From the NCBI GenBank assembly GCA_013368315.1, contig JAACJM010000112.1, forward strand, positions 124,001 to 188,000: a stretch of 64,000 nt of DNA, read 5' to 3'. Below, in pieces: positions 3,297 to 64,000 of the stretch (position 1 is the first letter of the stretch; every line of letters begins with the position of its first letter). The position numbers and the translations under genes were made by a program. The notes beneath the pieces are model-generated. The model made no database searches, was not told the origin of the DNA, and saw nothing but the letters and a program-made list of their open reading frames with translations. The DNA comes from Tetrapyrgos nigripes (taxonomy: Eukaryota; Basidiomycota; Agaricomycetes; Agaricales; Campanellaceae).

Positions 3297-4355
<1,059 letters not shown>

Positions 4356-23871: not shown

Positions 23872-26800
23872 CTATCTTAACCCCTCATACGGATCATCAT
23901 ACGGCCTCTCCTCACCCTCAGACTTATTGTGCCCTCCCAAACTTGTCTCCTGATAATGATACGGCGCTAATCTTATATCCTCATCGTAGCTCATTCTATT
24001 AGATCTAGGAGTACGAAGTGGGTACTCACTAGCATCCGTACTCCCCGCGCCTCCATTGTGTCCATTATGATTGTTGATAATAGCAGTTGACCTCCATCTA
24101 TGATCTGAAGACGCTGATCCAGGACCTACTTTTGTATACGCAGAATCGACACGGAAGGCTGTAGCGAGTGTGGGTCGAGAGGTGGAGGTCATATGACCGT
24201 GTCCATGCGCGGTAGGTACTCCACGGAAATAGTCTACGAAGAAACGGCAGGAAGAGATAATTTCACGCGCAAAGTCGGAGTAGTTTATTCTGTAGGGGTT
24301 TAGAGTCAGCGTTGACGTCGTTGAGAGTATATAGGCACTCACGAATCCCACAAAGGCTTCCAAATTTTCGTCGGCGGTGCACCTGGAATACGGTATTCTT
24401 TGGGAGTATATGCCCACCACATCATAATGGAGAAGAGGATCATCTGTATGGTGCAGAAGGGTTAGAATGACTCAAACAATTCCAATGTACGAACTCAGGA
24501 ATGATCAACGCACCTCGATACAAATCGCCAGAGCATTCAACCCGTTCGATATATTCGTCGCCGACCAGTAATCCGTTGCGTGGATGACTCGACCTTCAAG
24601 TGCAGAGAACTATGACCGTTCACGAGTCAGTCAGTATATATACATTTTCTCATTCATAGTTGGGCAATAGACAGAGCATTGAGAAAACGCACCACAAAGC
24701 TCTGATAAAACGTAAACATCACAATCAACTTGATCGACCAAAACTTGGCGAGAGGTCTTTTATCGGCCAATTCCGCTGAGGTTAGTCCGTAAAACACGAA
24801 GAGACCGTACAGGGCGACACTGTGAACGTTAAGTATATCCAGATAAACCCAGCAAGGACAGGTGAGAATACAGGATAAGAACTCACCTAATACTAACAAA
24901 ATCCACTGCCTCGAGGTACACATTCGCATACCTCGCATCAAACCCTGCAGATTCACATAGGACGTTGTAATGTTCGCAGATGATACCTGCGATGGAAGCG
25001 AGAGGTCGGATGATGACGTATTGCAGGACCGACCACTATGAGACAGACGGTTCATGAGTCGTTGAGCACACAGACGAGCACACGGTGGAAGACGTGCTTA
25101 CTTTGACGGTATACATGAAGTAAGCCTATCCAAATATCTGTGTCAGTCATGTTCTCGAAAACATCGATAGAAAGAGTGAAAGGGGAGAGACGGAAGGATC
25201 AACAGGAGTACAAGCTAAAACGTGAATAGAAGCATAGACGTAGACTTAGACAAGGGTAGAATGATAAGGAGTAAGGGTTTTGGGATAGGTAAACCGGGGG
25301 TAGCGGGATGGAGTCGATCCTCCTTTTACCTTTCCACCTTTCATTCCTTCCCTGAATACGATCCAAAACAAAGACTTTGGGATAGGTAAACCGGGGGTAG
25401 CGGGATGGAGTCGATCCTCCTTTTACCTTTCCACCTTTCATTCCTTCCCTGAATACGATCCAAAACAAAGACGAGAAAAAGGGGTAGGTGGGGGTTTGTG
25501 TGGTAATGGAACCAAAGTGGCCATGAGCAGTAAATGAAACAGTAATGAAAGATGTTACACGACGATGCACGATGGCATAAAACCCCTTCAAGAAAGCAAG
25601 AACCCAAGCATCCCAACGAATCCGGCAGATAGAAGAAATAAAAGATAGTTCCCTTGACACTCACCTTCGTAGGTCTATACCTCCAACAACAGAACTATAT
25701 CCCATATTCCCATCACCAACAACCAACGTAGCCGACAGAGCCCAACCAGGCACCAAACCCAGACCCAGACCCAGTAATCCAATACGTTTGATCAATATCA
25801 GGACACGTCCCCACCCCAAATCCCGAATGCCGAACCCGATCCAAACAACCCAATCATCCGAACCGACGATGGTAAAACACGACCAGTACACGTCCCATCC
25901 CGCATCGCAACCAACCAATCAAGCCATCATTGGCAACCAACCAGATATCCACATTCCAATCCGCATTCCATCCACCAATTATCCACCACCCAACGCGACA
26001 CCAATCACCAATCCAAGCCCACGCATAACCGACCAGGCACCAATCGCCAATCCAGGGTTGAACCGACATCCGAAAGCGCAGCAGCAGTCGAGGCACAATG
26101 CCATGATATGGTGATGTGGCAGGTCGGGGCGACGGCCCGGATATCCAAGTGGAGTAAGCCACGTAGTGACGTAGCGGTAGCGGAAATATGAGAAAAAGCA
26201 AAAACAAAAGCAAAGAGGCGTGGAGGATGTCAGCATATCATTCTCTAGTCACATAGCATGGAACATAAAAAGGGAACGCCAGAACGCAGATCCTTGGGTC
26301 TCGGGCGCGAGCGCCCAAAACACGAAGGAAAGACAAACGGAAAAAGGAAAACGCACGGGAATAGGTAAAGGCCTCTTATCCTTTCTCACAATTGCTCCAT
26401 CTGCTGTATGATCTGCGGATGTTGCGGCAACAAATTCGATCAGGAGGAGTCTGGATTGTCATGAGTTGGGGTAGTAGTCGTGGTGTGTGGATGGAAAAGA
26501 AGTTTGGATGAATGGGTGTTGTATGTATCATAAAGATGTACGAAATCATGTATTGGAGGAATACATGCAGCACGGAAAACACGGAAAGATGATGAGATGG
26601 ATATGACACTTGGAACGAAGGAAGAAAGTCACGTACAAGAATGCACTGAGTGTCACTGCCTTGGAACCGCAACACGGAATGACGCAAGGAAAGGACCGCA
26701 AACGGCAGCAGGGTATGCGATGTGAGTTGAAACGAATAAGAGCGGGTGAGACGAGAGAGGAAACGAGTATGGATGTCTTCGTCAGAACCTTGAGCAGCCA

Positions 26801-54424: not shown

Positions 54425-55593
54425 TTAAAATCCGAGCTCATTCAACTTATACCTCTCCCCATAGACATGGTACGCCATGTATCCTTGACTAAAGCTTCTA
54501 TAACAATCCAACGCTTCCTTATTACAGCCCAAAACTCTGATGATATTTTCGTGAGCAAGGATGACTTTCTCCACCGCCAGTCGCAGCGAGTCTATCTTCG
54601 AGATTCCCTGAGATTTGGCCAAGAGAGATATGTAGTTTACATCTTCTCCTGCTATCTCTTCTTTGTAGAACGAAAGGATGTCGCTGGATAACGGGAGTAA
54701 GTACTCACGCTGAGGAAGCAAGATTTTTAGAGGCCAATCACTCACTTTGTATGGTTCAGGAACACGCCTATCTCTGGGACGGTCTGTATGAAATCTGATA
54801 GGTTTATATTCCGATTCGAAGGGAAGATGAAAAGCGAGTAAGCATCCGTGACTCCCGACATCCTTCGATAGAACTCGGCGTAGCTAGGTTCGGTGACCTT
54901 GGAATTATCCGGGTAGGACAAAAGTTAGTTGTCACGTACTACTAGCCGTATGATTTACTCACCTCAATTTTGGTAGACTCCAAAATAACCGACGTAGACA
55001 TGTTGAGCGCCGCAGCAGTAATGCAATTGGCTTGAATGCGCCCAAAATATTGGTACATCTCTTTCAGAAGAACATCGCCCGCCTGCAGGACCGGATCTGT
55101 ATGTCTCTCGCCCGAGAGAAAACGTTCTTGAAAGCGATCGACATCCTCCTGAGCATCAGCGCCGAGCTGGTGAGCCTCATCCATGTATATGGCGAACGCG
55201 GTAAAGAGAGCCACGATCATTTGTAGATGAGGACTGGCGTCAAGGTGTCCATAGGCTGTGGTGGTAATTTGAACGCCTGAGAAGAGAATGGGGCCAAAGT
55301 ATGCTTTTAGCTTCTTCCGATTTGGAAAGTCTTCATTGGCGTTTGTGACATATTCGGGATATGGTATGCTCCTGCGGATAGACTCCTCGATGGCCAGTTT
55401 GTAAAGCTTGCTGTCAGCGTCTGTACATGGCCCTGGGTAGGTGAAACCAGCGCGATTGAGAAAAGAGCGATAGATAGCTTGGACTTCCGAGAAATTGGAC
55501 TGTGAAGGATAGTAGCCATAAAAATCTTCGTCGACTTCTATTCAGAAAGGAACATACCTGGAGCCATACCTGGGTAATCTCTGGCAAGCCCAT
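54425..55593 (-). CDS. Terpene synthase, trichodiene-synthase-like class I cyclase
   Basis: Would cyclise a prenyl diphosphate (probably farnesyl diphosphate) to a sesquiterpene. Exons 55593-55558, 55499-54963, 54897-54746 and 54683-54425 give 327 residues. The first metal-binding region is in FTAFAIYMDEAHQLG (about 115-130), with an Asp-Glu pair rather than the usual DDxxD. The second, the NSE triad, reads NDILSFYKEEIAGE (about 243-256; N, S and E in place), its Asn codon being split by an intron. A long helix with YRSF...GYMAYHVYGERY forms the C-terminus. The family pattern is that of fungal TRI5-type cyclases. No P450 or other tailoring gene is next to it, so it is not part of an obvious cluster here. 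Product unknown. Confidence 0.85.
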
Positions 55594-56842: not shown

Positions 56843-59003
56843 TAGGTACAAACAAGCCAGTTCAGAATCAAAGGACAGGTGTGGGATTTTATCTCGATTG
56901 GAATTTACTGACGCCTGGAAAGTAGAAAGCAGAAAGATTAGTGTTCAGAGCCAGAGTCATGACGTCGATGTATAGTAATTAAAAAACACAAGCCCATGAT
57001 GAATTGAATGAAGAAGTATGCGCTCACACTAGTACTCATCATTGAAAACTTCACCACTGTCACAGGAATCGTTCCAACCAACCCCAAATATCGGATGATA
57101 AGGAAGCAATAAGAAGATAGGATTTTAGGCCGAGTCTAGATGTAGTTGACTTCATCGCCTGAAACGACATCAATCAGATGCGAGAACATTACAGTCAACC
57201 ACTGAGTACTAAGTTAGGTAGAAGTTAAGCAGGACTCACCGAAAGTGATAATATGATCCAAAAAAAGAATCCCTGTAATTTTGTGTTTGTGAGTTACGAA
57301 AGCGTCCAGATCGAAAAGCTTGCAAAGACAACCTACTGATACCCAGGAGGTACATATACTTATGAACCATTCTGTGGACCCGTAGAGTAGTATCATCAGT
57401 ACGTATCAGAAACAAGTGCCCCTGTCAGCGAACGGGAAAGGGAACGGGCAGGGAACGGGGAAGGACATAGAATGGAGCTACTCACATCTGTCCTTCAATA
57501 TCGACGATGCCAACGCCAAGATTGTTGCCCTGGTTCATAATGATATTATAATATCTTCCTGAATCCTCAGGATTTTAGGACGAGATCGTTTTGGTTTTGT
57601 TTCTGAGTCGGTTTGTTCAGAGAGGAGAGCAGAGGAGAGAAAGCCGAGTGTAGAGCGTAGACTGACAGATGGAGCCAAAGAAATGCAAAGGAAGGGAAGG
57701 GAGGGAGGGAAATGGAGAGAGGAACAGGATTTCGTCAGTTGAATGGAGTGGGGGCAAGGATACGACAGCACAGACACAAGCCAAAAGAAACACAAGAACA
57801 CGAACGCGAAAATACAACAACGCAGGTGACAATATTCTCACAATATTCTCTAGAGAATCAAAATGAAAAGGCCTGGGTCCGGGGGACTCGGGGGCTGGGG
57901 AGAAAGTGTTCATTAGAATTCAATTATGTATGCAAGTCGCCTCAACCCAGAGACTCGGTAAAAATCGGACACCTCGAATGGATCGGGTAACCCCTTAGCA
58001 CCCCCAAGTCCGTTAAAGCTGGGGGTAGAAGGGAGGTGGGTAAGGTAGGTACTGGTGCCGGTACATGCAGGTTATCTTCAGGAAGGCGTCAGTCTTTTTT
58101 GTTTATTCCTCTAAAGCTGAGAAGCAACTGAGAAGACGTAAAAGTGAAATGTGACAGACGTGTGACAGCATGCCATTTCCACCAACCAATGTGCGTACTG
58201 GGGAAAGATGCCACTGCTTCGCATGGCAAATTACGGGGCCCAAGATAATATGACCAAAAAAAGGTCATCGCTACTAAGGAATAGGCAACATACTGAATCC
58301 GTCCCTCCAAACTCAGCTTCCGGTATACCGTAGTGATCTTCGCATACCTTCCGATCTCTCCCAAATCCATAGACGCGTCACTAAACGGAAATAGAAAGGA
58401 TGATTGGCATATGAAGGAATAAATGAATAGGGAGGAGGGACGATCCATGTCCAGCGAAGCTGGCAAACCCGATTACTATTTTTTCTATCTCATTCTAATT
58501 TATCATGCACGCTAATCGTCCTTTTCCTAACTCTATCACAGGCCATATCTCTAACCAGATAACCAGAGCCCGACCAAACCATGAAACCCATCCAAAACTC
58601 CAATTACAATGAAAATTGATGAAAAAGGGAAGATGAGGAGAACTACGCCCACTTCGTTTCTGAGAGAGAGCGTTAATGGCATCAGCTGCAGCATGACGTC
58701 GTGGTCGTCAACGTCAACGGTCCTTGGACCCGGTCCAGACTGAGTCTAGACTTTTCGGTTGTCGGGAAGGGTGGAGACCGGCCTAGGGGTGGGAGACTGA
58801 ACCCGTGGAAAATTTTCGAGGTCGACCTAAGTTAACTCAGCCTAAAGGCCTCGTAATCTCACTCCAAGAATTTTCAGTTCCGCCAGCTACGTAACCCCCC
58901 GCCCCCCACAACCTCCCAAGTCCTCCAATGTGCCTCCAATCCACCTATGCCTCTCCGAGTCGTCTGAGGACGTTGCTATTATCACGGGTCCACTACCAAC
59001 AAC
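56843..59003. other. Mostly non-coding region
   Basis: No convincing gene. A minus-strand frame at 58089-58466 has no family motif and runs through a dispersed hairpin repeat (58197-58242). Purine-rich tracts lie at 57420-57470 and 57680-57720. Confidence 0.35.
58197..58242. repeat. Dispersed hairpin motif GCCACTGCTTCGCATGGC
   Basis: 'tactggggaaagatgccact', 'gcttcgcatggcaaattacg', 'gggccc' closely repeats 60668-60723 and resembles the hairpin end of the 409-bp elements (GGCCTCG...GCCAC..GC..TGGCCC). Confidence 0.6.
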
Positions 59004-59276
59004 TTGGTCGCAACATCAAGTCATGGCATAACGGGAACGAGATCTTCTCGTCGGGCTGCAATGGTTAACTACGCCAGCCCTGGTTCGGGGGATGATATCA
59101 GTGTCGAGGAAAGCGAAGACGAAGGTGGTGCGAAGGACAAAGAGGATGATAAGGACAAGGATTATAACCCAGACGATTTCGTTGCAGAAACAGGCAGACG
59201 GCGTTACGTGGGGCCAGTCTTGCTTGGGTATGGTCCTCCCATCGAGGTTTATAAAGAGTCGAGCGATATATCATAA
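59004..59276 (+). other. Open frame with SNF5/SFH1-like N-terminal motif (fragment?)
   Basis: A 90-residue frame: TRSSRRAAMVNYASPGSGDD, an acidic stretch, then NPDDFVAETGRRRYVG. This order (RR..VNYA-P-SGD, acidic, DFVA-G) resembles the region just before the SNF5 domain in fungal SNF5/SFH1 chromatin-remodelling subunits. The SNF5 domain itself was not found downstream; instead Pro/Ser-rich frames with plausible introns follow (59440-60000). It may be a truncated copy or a different acidic protein. Low certainty. Confidence 0.3.
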
Positions 59277-61639
59277 TCATTCGGGGCATGTGTGTCTGTA
59301 AGTCGTGTCGCCTTCCTTCGGTTCCTAAGCGTCTTCCCCCCAACCTTTACATGCCTTCCTACCTATACTCTCTTCTCTTATCACCATCTTTTCCCTGTTT
59401 CATGCTCTTTGCTAGTACGCTAACGACGCTTTATTTCTAGATCCTCAGATCCATCTCCTTCTACCTCCCAATACGGAGACAAAGACAGACCTCCTACCCC
59501 TTTTTCCCATCCACGTCAAACTCAAAACACCCACTCATCCATCGTATACGAGATTGTGGGAGATATGTCTGCTTCCGGTATGCCTTTTATACTCGACTCT
59601 AGTTTTCGCATTCGTAATGCTCACCGTTCTTCCATTCTATCTTGCTTCCGTCTTCCCTAACTCACCACCATCATCCAACCGACAGAACTGCAATCCACCC
59701 TCTTCCCGTCGTCCTAAACTCCGCTGTTCTCATCCGACCTACCATCTTCTCCCTCGTCAGCAGAGGAATAGACATACGAGCCTCCGTAACGCCCTTACCC
59801 CCAACCCCAACCCCTCTCAACCGCGTCTTTCAGTCCTTCACGAATCGCAAACCCAGTACTTTCAACACTCAAGGCCCCCACACCCACACCCACACCCTTA
59901 CTCACGTTACCAACCCTCGAGAGTCAATAACGACTCTCAACCTTGGCATTACCTCGGTATCGACATTGCAGTGGGGGACATAGCAGGGTCGTAGTATTCC
60001 TATGCCCACATCGACAATGATGGAGGTGCTGGCCCGGGATGGCGAGGCGGTAGGGCGGGACATTGTTGGTAGTCTCCTTGGACTCAGACTCGGACATAGA
60101 CAAAGTATGTTTCAATTTTGCTCTTCACCTTCACCTTTACATTTATTTGTTGCCTACATCTAGCGTACTCTGACTGACTTTCTTCTTTCTCCCTCTCTCC
60201 TTACCCTATTCTCAAAGAGAGAGAAAAAGAAAACACGCCTCCGAGTCGGTTTAACATAACGTTTACCCTCCTTCGTCTGCTCGTTTCGTTGAGATGGGCA
60301 GTGAGTGGTCCAAAAGGGAATTGAACGAGTGGGGATTGAGTAGGGATGTAGCTTCTAGTGGAGCAGGGTCTGGGTCCAGGCTAGGGATGCGTAGGCTTGC
60401 GGCGAAGGCGGCCGTGTAGCCAAAGAGAACGAGAGTAGGCGAAGGTGTGGGGAAGGGAAGTCGGGTTGGATAGAGAATGGCGTTGGGAACTATTGTGACT
60501 GGTCAACGTTCCGTCGACGTGGCCACTGAATCCATTCATGAGGCTTAGATGACGGACAGTACCTGTTGCATCTTTTCAAGTGTCACCCAGGCCGTTCGTT
60601 CTGATCCATTCCAAATTTTCACTCCCAATTCCAACTCCGGCTACTCAAAGACTCACCACCACTACTTCACTGGGGAAAGGTGCCACTGCTTCGCATGGCA
60701 AGATACGAGGCCCTTTCCCAGTGAACACTTCTTTGAAAGTAAGGGAATACAGCCATTGAAATATATAGACATACGCCACTCAGGGATTAGTAGTACACGC
60801 GTACATAAAACAGTACGGATATATGCAGAGAGTCAGAGTACACAATGTGTGATACCTAGTTATGATAAGCTCATCTCCTGAACACCTCACTTAATAGGAC
60901 AAATTTTGCGTAAATACCAAAGTATGAGAAATAAAATCATGCAAGTCTTGACCGAGATTGATGCCGTTGGTATCACGAAGCCCGGGTAATACACTCCTCC
61001 ACCTCCTCCCACACCACACGCTTCTTCAAACGAACGAAGATTTCTTCCATTTCTTCTCTCTTGAACTTCTTCATTGGGTCATTGGGGGGAGCACAGTCGT
61101 TTGGTCTTTCCCTTCGTCTTAACTTTGGCCCTGGACTTAGACTATGTCGCCTTCGGCCCTTCTTCGTCAGCATCCTCATATCGTATTGTATGGTGTGCGT
61201 GGTACTACGAGGAAAAAAGGGGAAGGAAACTGGACTTGGTGGCTCGATGTTCCGCAATCGTTCACATCTCTACGTCTTCGTCATAATTTTCCTCTTCGCC
61301 TTCGTTCTCTCTTCATACCCTTCAACGACCCCCCTCCCCCCAATCCCAATCCCTTCCTCCCCCCTTCCTCCCCCCTCTTGTTTTTGTACTGTAGTACACT
61401 TGATATCTAAACGACTATGTTGCAAACTTGCAGTGTTCATGGCAAGTAGACGTACGTTTATCGTAGACAACGTTTTGTCAGTCACCAGTTCTACTTCAAC
61501 TTGAAGTTGGTCACAGTTGATAAACGATAGACGAGAGTGCCCATACACCTACACATATGAGGAGGGCTATCTTCATGAATTACAACGCCCATCTTCCGTC
61601 TTTCCGTTCCTCTCCTCCGCTCCAAACCGTCTTGGTTGC
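59277..61639. other. Region without recognisable genes
   Basis: Several Pro/Ser/Thr-rich open frames on both strands (for example 59554-59994 +, 60973-61257 -, 61061-61504 +) but no family motif. A hairpin motif repeat lies at 60668-60723. Confidence 0.35.
60668..60723. repeat. Hairpin with CACTGGG(G)AAAGG ends and GCCACTGCTTCGCATGGC core
   Basis: 'cactggggaaaggtgccact' and 'gaggccctttcccagtg' are inverted around the core 'gcttcgcatggcaagatac'. Related to 58197-58242 and to the hairpin end of the 409-bp element family. Confidence 0.65.
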
Positions 61640-61855
61640 TAGCCGTCGTTGCCATTTGCAACGCTAGCAGCCAACTCAATGCTAATTGTTCCAGACACTT
61701 CATTGAAGTTCACCATCCTCGGATGTTGTCGCCGCTAATCGTCATTGCCACTTGCAACGCTAGCGGCCAACTCAACGCGGATTGTTCCAGGTATAGTTAA
61801 TACGCGTCATGCTATTGCTCAAAAAAGTCACTTCACCATCCTCGGATGTTGTCGG
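61640..61855. repeat. Direct repeat upstream of the repeat-peptide gene
   Basis: Two units of roughly 100 bp start at about 61643 and 61737. Both contain 'ttgcaacgctagc(a/g)gccaac', 'attgttccag' and 'ttcaccatcctcggatgttg'. A single diverged unit exists in reverse at about 44980-45070, upstream of the decayed relative. Likely promoter material of the gene at 62171. Confidence 0.7.
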
Positions 61856-62170
61856 TGCAATGTGCACAGGTCGGATAATATTCTTGGGGAATGTTAACCT
61901 CCGAGTCCATTCTAACTTTCTGATGTCTAACTTTTGAGTCACACCAGGTTGCCAGGTTTCCGCGCAAAGAGTGTCGCAAGTCCACGTTGTAGTTCACCTT
62001 ACTGCAGCTTGCATAGCTATACGAAACGATAATTATAGATAAAATTGGTTGTGGCAGGACCAGCTATAAAACCCTCGAAGCTTAATCACTCTTCCTCCCA
62101 TCTATCCATCCAACCAAGTTTCTTATACACCTATTTAATATCTTTCATCTTTCATATCTTCTTAACTCAC

Positions 62171-63237
62171 ATGGCCGTCTCAAACTCGAATTCTAATCCT
62201 CAATTTTGCCAACTCCTTCTCACTCTCTTCCTCTGCCTCACTGTCTCCCTTCAGTTCGCCGACATGGCCCAGGGCGCTCCAGTTCCAGTTCCAGGTCCAA
62301 AAGAGAGCGAAGGAGGGGGAAACGGAGTAGATGTACTAGCTCGCGTCAATGTCAATGGTATGTCCAAAGCTTATCCTTCGTCCAATATCCTTCATATATA
62401 GCTCAAGCTCACTGAATCTTAATTACAGGAGCCGATAACAGCTTCAGTGACACACGGCGATGGAACCCTGTTGATGTTGGCACCTTGCCGCCTGGTACTC
62501 GTAGACAAACCGATATCCCAGGTGCCGAGCCTATAACAGGCGATCCCCCTGTTTCTGGTGGTGATTCTGCTCGACTGATTAATCGTATTAATGGTAAGTC
62601 CAGATCTACACTCGCCATTTTCCACCTGAAGCTTTCGAAATCATTCGAGTCATTCATGATCATTCAACGTTATTGACCAAACTGTGACTGACTGCTATCT
62701 GTAATATGGCAGGACAAGCTGCGTCCTGGAAACGGATTAATGGTAAGTCCCTCCTCCAGCCTTCTTTCCAATCATCTCGCGCTGTTTTGCACTTGGAAGC
62801 CTTCCAAATGATTATCATTCGAGTCTTTCATTCAAAGCTATTGACCAAATTGTGACTAACTGCTATCTGTGAATGTAATATAACAGGACAAGCTGCGTCA
62901 TGGAAACGTATTAACGGTAAGTCCCTCCTCCAACCTTCTTCCCAATCATCTCGCGTTACTTTGCACTTGGAAGCCTTCCAAATGATTATCATTCGAGTCA
63001 TTCATTCAAAGTTATCAACCAAACTGCGACTAACTGCTATCTGTAAATGTAATATGGCAGGACAAGCTGCGACCTGGAAACGTATTGATGATGGTAAGTC
63101 CCTCCTCCAACCTTCTTTCCAATCATCTCGCAGTGTTTTGCACTTGGAAGCCTTTCAAATGATTCGTTTTCTCGTTCATTCCGAGTCAAAGCTATTGAGC
63201 AAACCGTGACTGACTGCTACCTGTAGCCTTCCCCTGA
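62171..63237 (+). CDS. Secreted repeat-peptide precursor with Lys-Arg (Kex2-type) sites
   Basis: Exons 62171-62357, 62429-62593, 62713-62742, 62887-62916, 63061-63093, 63227-63237 give 151 residues. Signal peptide about 1-36 (LLLTLFLCLTVSLQF, cut near AQG-AP). A spacer with TRRWNPV and TRRQTD (dibasic sites) follows. The tail is three repeats, each from one mini-exon of 30-33 nt: QAASW-KR-ING twice, then QAATW-KR-IDD, closing with AFP. If cut after each Lys-Arg and trimmed, two octapeptides result, INGQAASW and INGQAATW. This is the layout of fungal Kex2-processed repeat proteins, which include pheromones, wall-active repellents and cyclised RiPP precursors. Which class it belongs to is unknown; no modifying enzyme was seen in the window. 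All introns are phase 1, so units can be added or lost without frameshift. Confidence 0.75.
62713..63234 (+). repeat. 174-bp tandem array of mini-exon plus intron
   Basis: Units begin exactly at 62713, 62887 and 63061 (174-bp spacing). Each has the mini-exon 'gacaagctgcg(t/a)c(c/a)tggaaacg', the donor 'gtaagtccctcctcca', the shared intron body 'gcacttggaagcct' and the branch-site region 'ctgactgctacctg' or 'ctaactgctatctg'. The third unit is shorter and splices to the terminal exon. The intron before 62713 is a more diverged half-unit. Confidence 0.92.
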
Positions 63238-63603
63238 ACGGAGAGAAGAGGCTATCGGTGGTGATCTGAGCATATTGGGATATTATTAGGCTCCGAGACT
63301 TGATTTTTCGGCTGGTCATGGCCTAACCTGTGAAGACGGGAAGCGGGATCGGGATCCCGACAGGGACAAATATGAATATTTATTTATGCAGCTTGTCTAC
63401 TCTTCTATTACTGGTAATAGCAGTAAGAGGATATAGTCAATCAGTGTTTTATCAAATCACTCGCGGGCACTCGCAGCCGCTTGAGTCTGTGAGTCCGCAA
63501 AAATTCCGTGAGTTCTTTTGACTAAAATGTACATGAAGAGCTTGTGGGCCACCGCTTCGCGTGGCAATAACGAGGCCCTGAAATCAACAAACATTATTAT
63601 TAC
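63238..63603. other. Intergenic region with a hairpin motif
   Basis: No gene. At 63543-63579 'tgtgggccaccgcttcgcgt' and 'ggcaataacgaggccct' repeat the hairpin end of the 409-bp element family (reversed), so another member or fragment may begin here. Confidence 0.5.
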
Positions 63604-64000
63604 TTATACAAATAAGCCATATAGCAAAACTGCTGCTTTTTTATTGTCATAATATGTAACAGATTCAGTTCCATTTACCAATATGCTAGCTTTATGGGGT
63701 ACTCCATTTTTGATACCATCATATATATATTCTGCTTGATTACTGAATATACGGAGAATAAAGTGCTCTTCTCCAAAATAAATTATAGCTTTCAAATCAT
63801 ATGGTTTTTGGTTGCCATTGACAGTGAGGTTAATCATCCTGTCAATGTCCATTGAAGCATTTATTGGGACATACAGTAAAAAGAATTTAGGAAATCTAGT
63901 AAACTCAATGACAGTTTGAAGCTCTGTATGACAGATTTGGCATTGCCAACCAAATGGTTGAACAAAATTGTCTACCCATTGTTGTGTAGATTGATACATT
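63604..64000 (-). CDS. C-terminal part of a protease-like ORF of basidiomycete mobile elements
   Basis: Open on the minus strand from the window edge to a stop at 63604, 131 residues visible, so the protein is incomplete. It shows QPFGWQCQICHTELQ (two cysteines) and then LKAIIYFGEEHFILRIFSNQ and YIYDGIKNG. This matches the general pattern (I-I-Y-x-G-x-x-H-F-x-x-R...DG) of ubiquitin-peptidase-like domains that I associate with large ORFs of basidiomycete transposons. The His in EEHF would be catalytic. The frame is intact and AT-rich compared with its neighbours. The assignment is by pattern only. Confidence 0.45.
   Translation of the reverse strand, partial: MYQSTQQWVDNFVQPFGWQCQICHTELQTVIEFTRFPKFFLLYVPINASMDIDRMINLTVNGNQKPYDLKAIIYFGEEHFILRIFSNQAEYIYDGIKNGVPHKASILVNGTESVTYYDNKKAAVLLYGLFV

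Follow-up and report, generated by a model that had tools for sequence, protein, structure and literature searches.

Does the right-hand end of the window (the whole 64,000-nucleotide stretch of DNA analysed here) carry a gene in which every copy of a short secreted peptide is encoded by an exon of its own, and which peptides would such a gene release? The predicted peptide-precursor gene, read from the DNA, occupies 62171–63237 on the plus strand, exactly the coordinates given by the initial annotation, and its six exons form a coding sequence of 456 nt for a protein of 151 aa. In the best reading, which we regard as probable, the gene is present once in the genome of a mushroom-forming basidiomycete and encodes a KEX2-processed repeat protein (KEP) predicted to release the linear peptides INGQAASW and INGQAATW, with a signal peptide judged by hydropathy. 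The KEP-type precursor is itself of a known kind, and the arrangement of one mini-exon per repeat appears to be what is new here.

Structure of the predicted gene

The features of the gene model are as follows.

62065–62071, plus strand: TATA-box-like TATAAAA, about 100 nt 5' of the start codon, found by eye
62171–62357, plus strand: exon 1, 187 nt, signal-like N-terminus and start of the pro-region, ending ARVNVN-G in phase 1
62358–62428, plus strand: intron 1, 71 nt, GTATGT..CAG
62429–62593, plus strand: exon 2, 165 nt, phase 1-1, pro-region with two RR sites, ending LINRIN-G
62594–62712, plus strand: intron 2, 119 nt, 71–76% identical to introns 3–5 over 111–116 aligned sites
62713–62742, plus strand: mini-exon 3, 30 nt, QAASWKRIN unit
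62743–62886, plus strand: intron 3, 144 nt, from the gene model and the intron alignment
62887–62916, plus strand: mini-exon 4, 30 nt, QAASWKRIN unit
62917–63060, plus strand: intron 4, 144 nt, 90% identical to intron 3, with no in-frame stop
63061–63093, plus strand: mini-exon 5, 33 nt, QAATWKRIDD unit
63094–63226, plus strand: intron 5, 133 nt, from the gene model and the intron alignment
63227–63237, plus strand: exon 6, 11 nt with the stop codon, C-terminal AFP

All five introns run from GT to AG and every one is in phase 1. Introns 2–5 have GTAAGT donors and a CTAAC/CTGAC branch-point-like motif that starts 17–31 nt before the 3' end; in intron 1 the donor is GTATGT, and a motif of the CTAAC/CTGAC type is absent. 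Each of the mini-exons 3–5 encodes one QAA(S/T)WKRI unit, and the preceding intron interrupts the Gly codon with which each unit begins. The gene structure proposed in the initial annotation is thereby upheld as an open, phase-consistent six-exon model with near-consensus splice sites, and its proposal of one repeat per phase-1 exon is borne out, the exons being symmetric and 30, 30 and 33 nt long. All three QAA(S/T)WKRI mini-exons that it described are present, with the correction that the last unit reads QAATWKRIDD. It had also named a gene on the opposite strand as a competing explanation; eight stop-to-stop frames of 48–84 aa overlap the gene there, and the seven that were scanned gave no Pfam match.

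Predicted processing and released peptides

The C-terminal part of the precursor reads LINR INGQAASWKR INGQAASWKR INGQAATWKR IDDAFP, with nearly identical internal repeats (INGQAASWKR twice, INGQAATWKR once). KR sites stand at residues 124, 134 and 144, and RR sites at 72 and 87. KEPs are defined by a signal peptide, internal repeats and KEX2 sites between the repeats (PMC6339444). The earlier description of a KEP-type precursor with Lys-Arg sites agrees with this arrangement, within the limit set by a repeat number of just three units. Two of its details need qualification. The dibasic spacers exist as three WKR and two RR sites, but in front of the first repeat unit stands a lone Arg (LINR), with no dibasic site. 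The signal peptide corresponds to a strong hydrophobic stretch at residues 13–29, followed by AQGAP, with hydropathy as the sole criterion.

In-silico cutting at dibasic sites followed by trimming yields an N-terminal piece, WNPVDVGTLPPGT, a 35-residue fragment ending in INGQAASW, INGQAASW, INGQAATW and IDDAFP. The predicted release of the two octapeptides thus holds for one copy of each from dibasic cuts alone; the first INGQAASW stays on the 35-residue fragment because the single Arg before it needs cutting too. Some Coprinopsis KEPs were reported to be cut at single Arg residues when produced in Pichia (PMC9769878), and similar cutting would, by analogy, free the first copy as well. The computed [M+H]+ values are 846.41 for INGQAASW and 860.43 for INGQAATW; with KR untrimmed they rise to 1130.607 and 1144.622, respectively. 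A profile search of the genome (98.46 Mb, 587 contigs) found one match to the proprotein-convertase P domain, a domain of KEX2-type proteases. In the proposed pathway, the precursor would enter the secretory pathway, KEX2 would cleave after RR and WKR, KEX1 would remove the basic residues, and the linear Trp-ended peptides INGQAASW and INGQAATW would be secreted, probably as signals for the fungus itself or for other organisms.

A narrower version of the KEP reading, in which the peptides form an alpha-pheromone-like signal read by a STE2-like receptor, seems rather unlikely. Some basidiomycete KEPs, including Pleurotus 1091723 with its AADW ends, have been described as alpha-pheromone-like (PMC6339444; PMC7329392; PMC9769878), but the feature behind that label, a STE13-type XA/XP dipeptide, is absent from the present precursor, in which KR is followed by IN or ID. 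For this reason, the precursor is not classed with the agaricomycete KEP peptides ending in -AADW. A search of the genome for the AADW-plus-basic pattern returned three matches on three contigs against three in the control, and no array. The genome does contain four STE2 (alpha-factor receptor) profile matches, one of them above the Pfam cut-off, yet they are short and weak (25–30 bits), and the strong receptor matches are those to STE3 (22 in the genome, 17 of them on one contig). The MAT alpha-box profile had no match in the genome, nor in the control genomes, and so carries no information here. The open-access literature search found nothing on STE2 in Agaricomycetes together with alpha-pheromone. 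The STE2-like matches are possible receptors for alpha-like KEP peptides and lie at the following positions.

Contig C45, 96339–96566: weak STE2 match, Pfam profile
Contig C45, 101313–101555: weak STE2 match, Pfam profile
Contig C67, 171959–172138: weak STE2 match, Pfam profile
Contig C158, 129634–129879: weak STE2 match, Pfam profile

Growth of the exon array

The repetition is no accident of sequence: Tandem Repeats Finder reported a 174-nt unit present 3.3 times at 62660–63225 (score 780), and therefore the duplicated segment is a mini-exon together with its intron. The array grew through tandem duplication of this exon-plus-intron segment. Identity is 90.3% between introns 3 and 4 (14 differences over 144 sites), 83.1% between introns 3 and 5, and 79.2% between introns 4 and 5. 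Exons 3 and 4 differ at three of 30 sites, two of which fell within a 27-nt comparison and the third of which came from the full exon sequences, and all three differences are synonymous. Three random changes were all synonymous in 1.4% of trials. Since exon 5 departs from exons 3 and 4 by an S to T change, an N to D change and one additional codon, the selection signal in the mini-exons is suggestive, not strong; it rests on three synonymous changes and is weaker across all three units.

Among 311 mini-exon-like candidates in 284 kb (the window, the stretches L007 and L008, and twenty 10-kb regions around UstYa matches), the only similar, neighbouring [KR]R mini-exons that recurred were the three of this gene. 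At the RNA level, the array folded no better than its shuffled versions, 17 of 20 of which did equally well (z 0.93), and Rfam gave no match at gathering scores in window positions 58000–64000. Because each repeat is a symmetric phase-1 mini-exon, a duplication or a skip can alter the number of peptide copies without a frameshift. The locus illustrates one route to a different repeat number in a KEP, in which a symmetric exon is duplicated along with its intron.

Exon skipping, intron retention and peptide dose

Each of the four internal exons has a length divisible by three and is flanked by phase-1 introns, so exon skips stay in frame. Any combination of skips of exons 3–5 keeps the frame and leaves three, two, one or no WKR units; with all three skipped, the computed product is a 120-aa protein ending LINRINAFP. 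This 120-aa protein is the main product in an alternative that we consider unlikely: the secreted-protein gene would be real, but most transcripts would skip the mini-exons, or these would be duplicates in decay, with the repeats arising as a side effect of tandem duplication. The exons of 30 nt are indeed short, and intron 1, at 71 nt, is exceeded in length by the introns of the array (119–144 nt). The array, however, has kept its GTAAGT donors and branch-point-like motifs throughout introns 2–5 and the residues W, K and R in all three units, and the synonymous nature of every change between exons 3 and 4 also speaks against it.

Under the KEP reading, splicing could in principle alter the copy number of the peptides. 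Computed retention of intron 1 gives 76 residues and that of intron 2 gives 144, both with zero WKR units; retention of intron 3 gives 164 residues with one unit, and retention of intron 4 or 5 gives 199 or 186 residues, respectively, with three units each. The most frequent alternative event in Schizophyllum commune is intron retention; exon skips make up 1% of the alternative-splicing events in coding regions, although a junction-level analysis counts 1,527 of them (PMC5034255). Given this preference, if splicing tunes the precursor, intron retention would be at least as likely a means as exon skipping. The stronger proposal, that each mature-peptide copy is an independent symmetric splice unit and that regulated skipping or array-truncating retention sets the peptide dose as an RNA-level rheostat, strikes us as improbable.

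Relatives, paralogues and genomic surroundings

No homologue of the precursor was found in the protein database at E ≤ 10, either with the whole protein (16 candidates) or with residues 101–151 (1029 candidates), and hence no cross-species conservation can be claimed for it; the search depends on shared 5-residue words, and exons of 30 nt may escape gene callers, so relatives could be missed. As a positive control, the glutathione synthase frame at 1210–2112 retrieved 924 proteins at E ≤ 1e-30 from 4317 candidates, which indicates that the database holds many mushroom proteins. This frame is closest to Tetrapyrgos nigripes (59% identity), and the named matches below it, among the best 120 of the 924, are from Agaricomycetes. 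Together with the STE3 matches, these nearest protein relatives place the host among the basidiomycetes, in the Agaricomycetes.

Within the genome, the gene was found as a single copy. The one DNA match is the gene itself, both protein matches are this gene, and all three matches to the QAA-WKR pattern lie within it. An exon-plus-donor pattern with one mismatch allowed gave five matches, two in the gene and three single ones on other contigs, against four in the control. A looser WKR-plus-donor pattern gave 126 and 136 matches against 152 and 143 in the reversed control, which is no excess; among the 100 of 262 matches listed, the close same-strand neighbours amounted to two places, each listed twice.

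To the left of the gene, the Pfam matches in the window are to ordinary enzymes and a retroelement protease. To the right, the adjoining 20 kb hold 18 frames of 110 aa or more, which match PIF1 helicase, Helitron_like_N, gag, aspartyl protease, integrase-type or reverse-transcriptase families or have no Pfam match, in a scan that genes split by many introns could escape. The initial annotation had suggested looking for UstYa-like, methyltransferase or peptidase genes just beyond the right edge; these 18 frames gave neither a UstYa nor a methyltransferase match, and the 33 UstYa matches listed for the genome are all on other contigs. Further observations on the surroundings are listed below.

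3325–4218: GH11 xylanase-match frame, which also spans a 24-nt tandem repeat at 4073–4175
25279–25472: perfect 97-nt tandem duplication, 100% match
54425–54883, minus strand: trichodiene-synthase-like (TRI5) terpene synthase exon, about 7 kb left of the gene
58216–58240 and 60682–60713: short motif GCCACTGCTTCGCATGGCAANNNACGAGGCCC
63548–63578: degenerate copy of GCCACTGCTTCGCATGGCAANNNACGAGGCCC, seen by eye, between the precursor gene and the right-hand transposon genes
63607–63999, minus strand: frame with no Pfam match of its own, in phase with the PIF1 frame
L007 3–3086 and 5451–8153, minus strand: Helitron-like genes (PIF1 helicase, Helitron_like_N, DUF6570), Pfam
L007 3545–5484, plus strand: zinc-knuckle/aspartyl-protease retroelement piece between the Helitron-like genes

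The PIF1 frame starts about 770 bases to the right of the precursor gene. The motif GCCACTGCTTCGCATGGCAANNNACGAGGCCC occurs in 289 and 307 genome copies with at most one mismatch, against none for the reversed control, and is perhaps a transposon end.

These surroundings bear on the reading that the gene is not functional and is a chance open model within transposon-rich intergenic DNA. Transposon-like genes do lie directly to its right, the precursor has no homologue in the database search above, and the Pfam scan of the precursor returned no family and just one sub-threshold match (E 0.47). Against this, chance would hardly produce six exons that agree in phase and splice signals, together with a codon pattern that repeats exactly, and we regard this reading as very unlikely.

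UstYa matches and other repeat arrays in the genome

Dikaritins, of which phomopsin is one type, contain Tyr in their core for cyclisation. That the present gene is a dikaritin-type RiPP precursor, with KEX2-released peptides cyclised by UstYa (DUF3328) oxidases, is highly improbable. The genome does hold at least 33 UstYa matches, some of which have KEP arrays with 16-residue repeats within a few kb, but none of the 33 listed is on this gene's contig (C109), none of the 18 right-hand frames is UstYa-like, and the 151-aa precursor contains no Tyr.

The UstYa profile matches are spread over 13 contigs, and twenty 10-kb regions on eight of these contigs were examined. Long KEP arrays were present in three of the twenty regions, on contigs C31, C68 and C93.

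C31, 557104–558537: KEP array, 478-codon open frame with 24 [KR]R sites, units such as APHVYALSEDEAVSKR
C68, 81968–82297: KEP array, 110-codon frame with 7 [KR]R sites
C68, 83926–84570: KEP array, 215-codon frame with 13 [KR]R sites
C93, 119532–119999: KEP array, 156-codon frame ended by the region edge, with at least 9 [KR]R sites

With units such as APHVYALSEDEAVSKR, VPHEYGPDAVEALSKR and VPHDYGLAKEEVVDRR, these arrays are likely the dikaritin precursors of this fungus. The C68 array may be interrupted, since the 110-codon frame ends inside an array reported by Tandem Repeats Finder. No introns separate successive repeats in the frames on the three contigs; since the repeats of these arrays follow one another within open frames, a layout of one exon per repeat seems unusual even by the standard of this genome.

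Demanding term combinations in the open-access literature returned neither a fungal precursor with one exon per repeat nor alternative splicing of KEX2 repeats, and in the portion of PMC8786786 consulted the repeats are not one per exon. The main texts of three KEP papers make no mention of exons or splicing, their sole mention of introns being intron-less cDNA cloning (PMC9769878). Of the two large surveys of KEPs, at least one began from predicted protein catalogues (PMC6339444), and such catalogues may miss the layout described here, as 30-nt exons would easily escape gene callers. As testable predictions, the locus supplies exact masses for two peptides and exact positions for five junctions.

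Comparison with known systems

Dikaritin precursors of the ustiloxin and asperipin type share KEX2-spaced repeats with the present gene (PMC7329392); unlike them, it has no UstYa match on its contig among those listed, no Tyr, and introns that split the repeats. The alpha-pheromone precursors of ascomycetes have a signal peptide, to which the signal-like N-terminus here would correspond, and KEX2-spaced repeats (PMC6339444), but their repeats carry STE13 dipeptides, which are lacking here, and the present host is a basidiomycete.

The agaricomycete KEPs (Coprinopsis 490115 and 447393, Lentinula 2599, Pleurotus 1091723 and 1439342) resemble the predicted precursor in having a signal peptide or signal-like N-terminus, KEX2 sites and short Trp-ended peptides (PMC9769878). 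Mass spectrometry detected SGTGEASAADW in Lentinula, SGVAADW in Pleurotus and GPPAPSW in Coprinopsis, the last stemming from a non-repetitive C-terminus; MSGVAADW is also among the agaricomycete peptides detected, QYKAPSW and QMRPPSW were detected after yeast expression, and other detected KEP peptides, such as pyro-QVPVDEPA, have no Trp end (PMC9769878). The AADW, APSW and PPSW ends of these peptides resemble AASW and AATW, a likeness four residues long (PMC9769878). All three units of the present gene end in A-A-x-W (AASW, AASW, AATW). The composition-based chance of [AP][AP][SDT] before Trp is about 0.7%, a figure that overstates the likeness because the pattern was drawn after the peptides were known. 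STE13 dipeptides are found in Coprinopsis 490115 and both Pleurotus precursors but not in the present gene (PMC9769878). The functions of mushroom KEPs are largely unknown; six C. cinerea KEP knock-outs were reported to show no apparent phenotype, and it was suggested that KEPs act towards the biotic environment (PMC9769878). By analogy, we infer for INGQAASW and INGQAATW a function similar to that of other mushroom KEP peptides.

In architecture, the closest analogue found is the micro-exon genes (MEGs) of schistosomes, a likeness of layout. MEGs likewise encode secreted proteins with short symmetric exons and are described as producing variants via alternative splicing; symmetric exons of 6–36 bp account for about 80% of their coding region (PMC5825161), compared with 93 of 456 nt (20%) in the gene described here.
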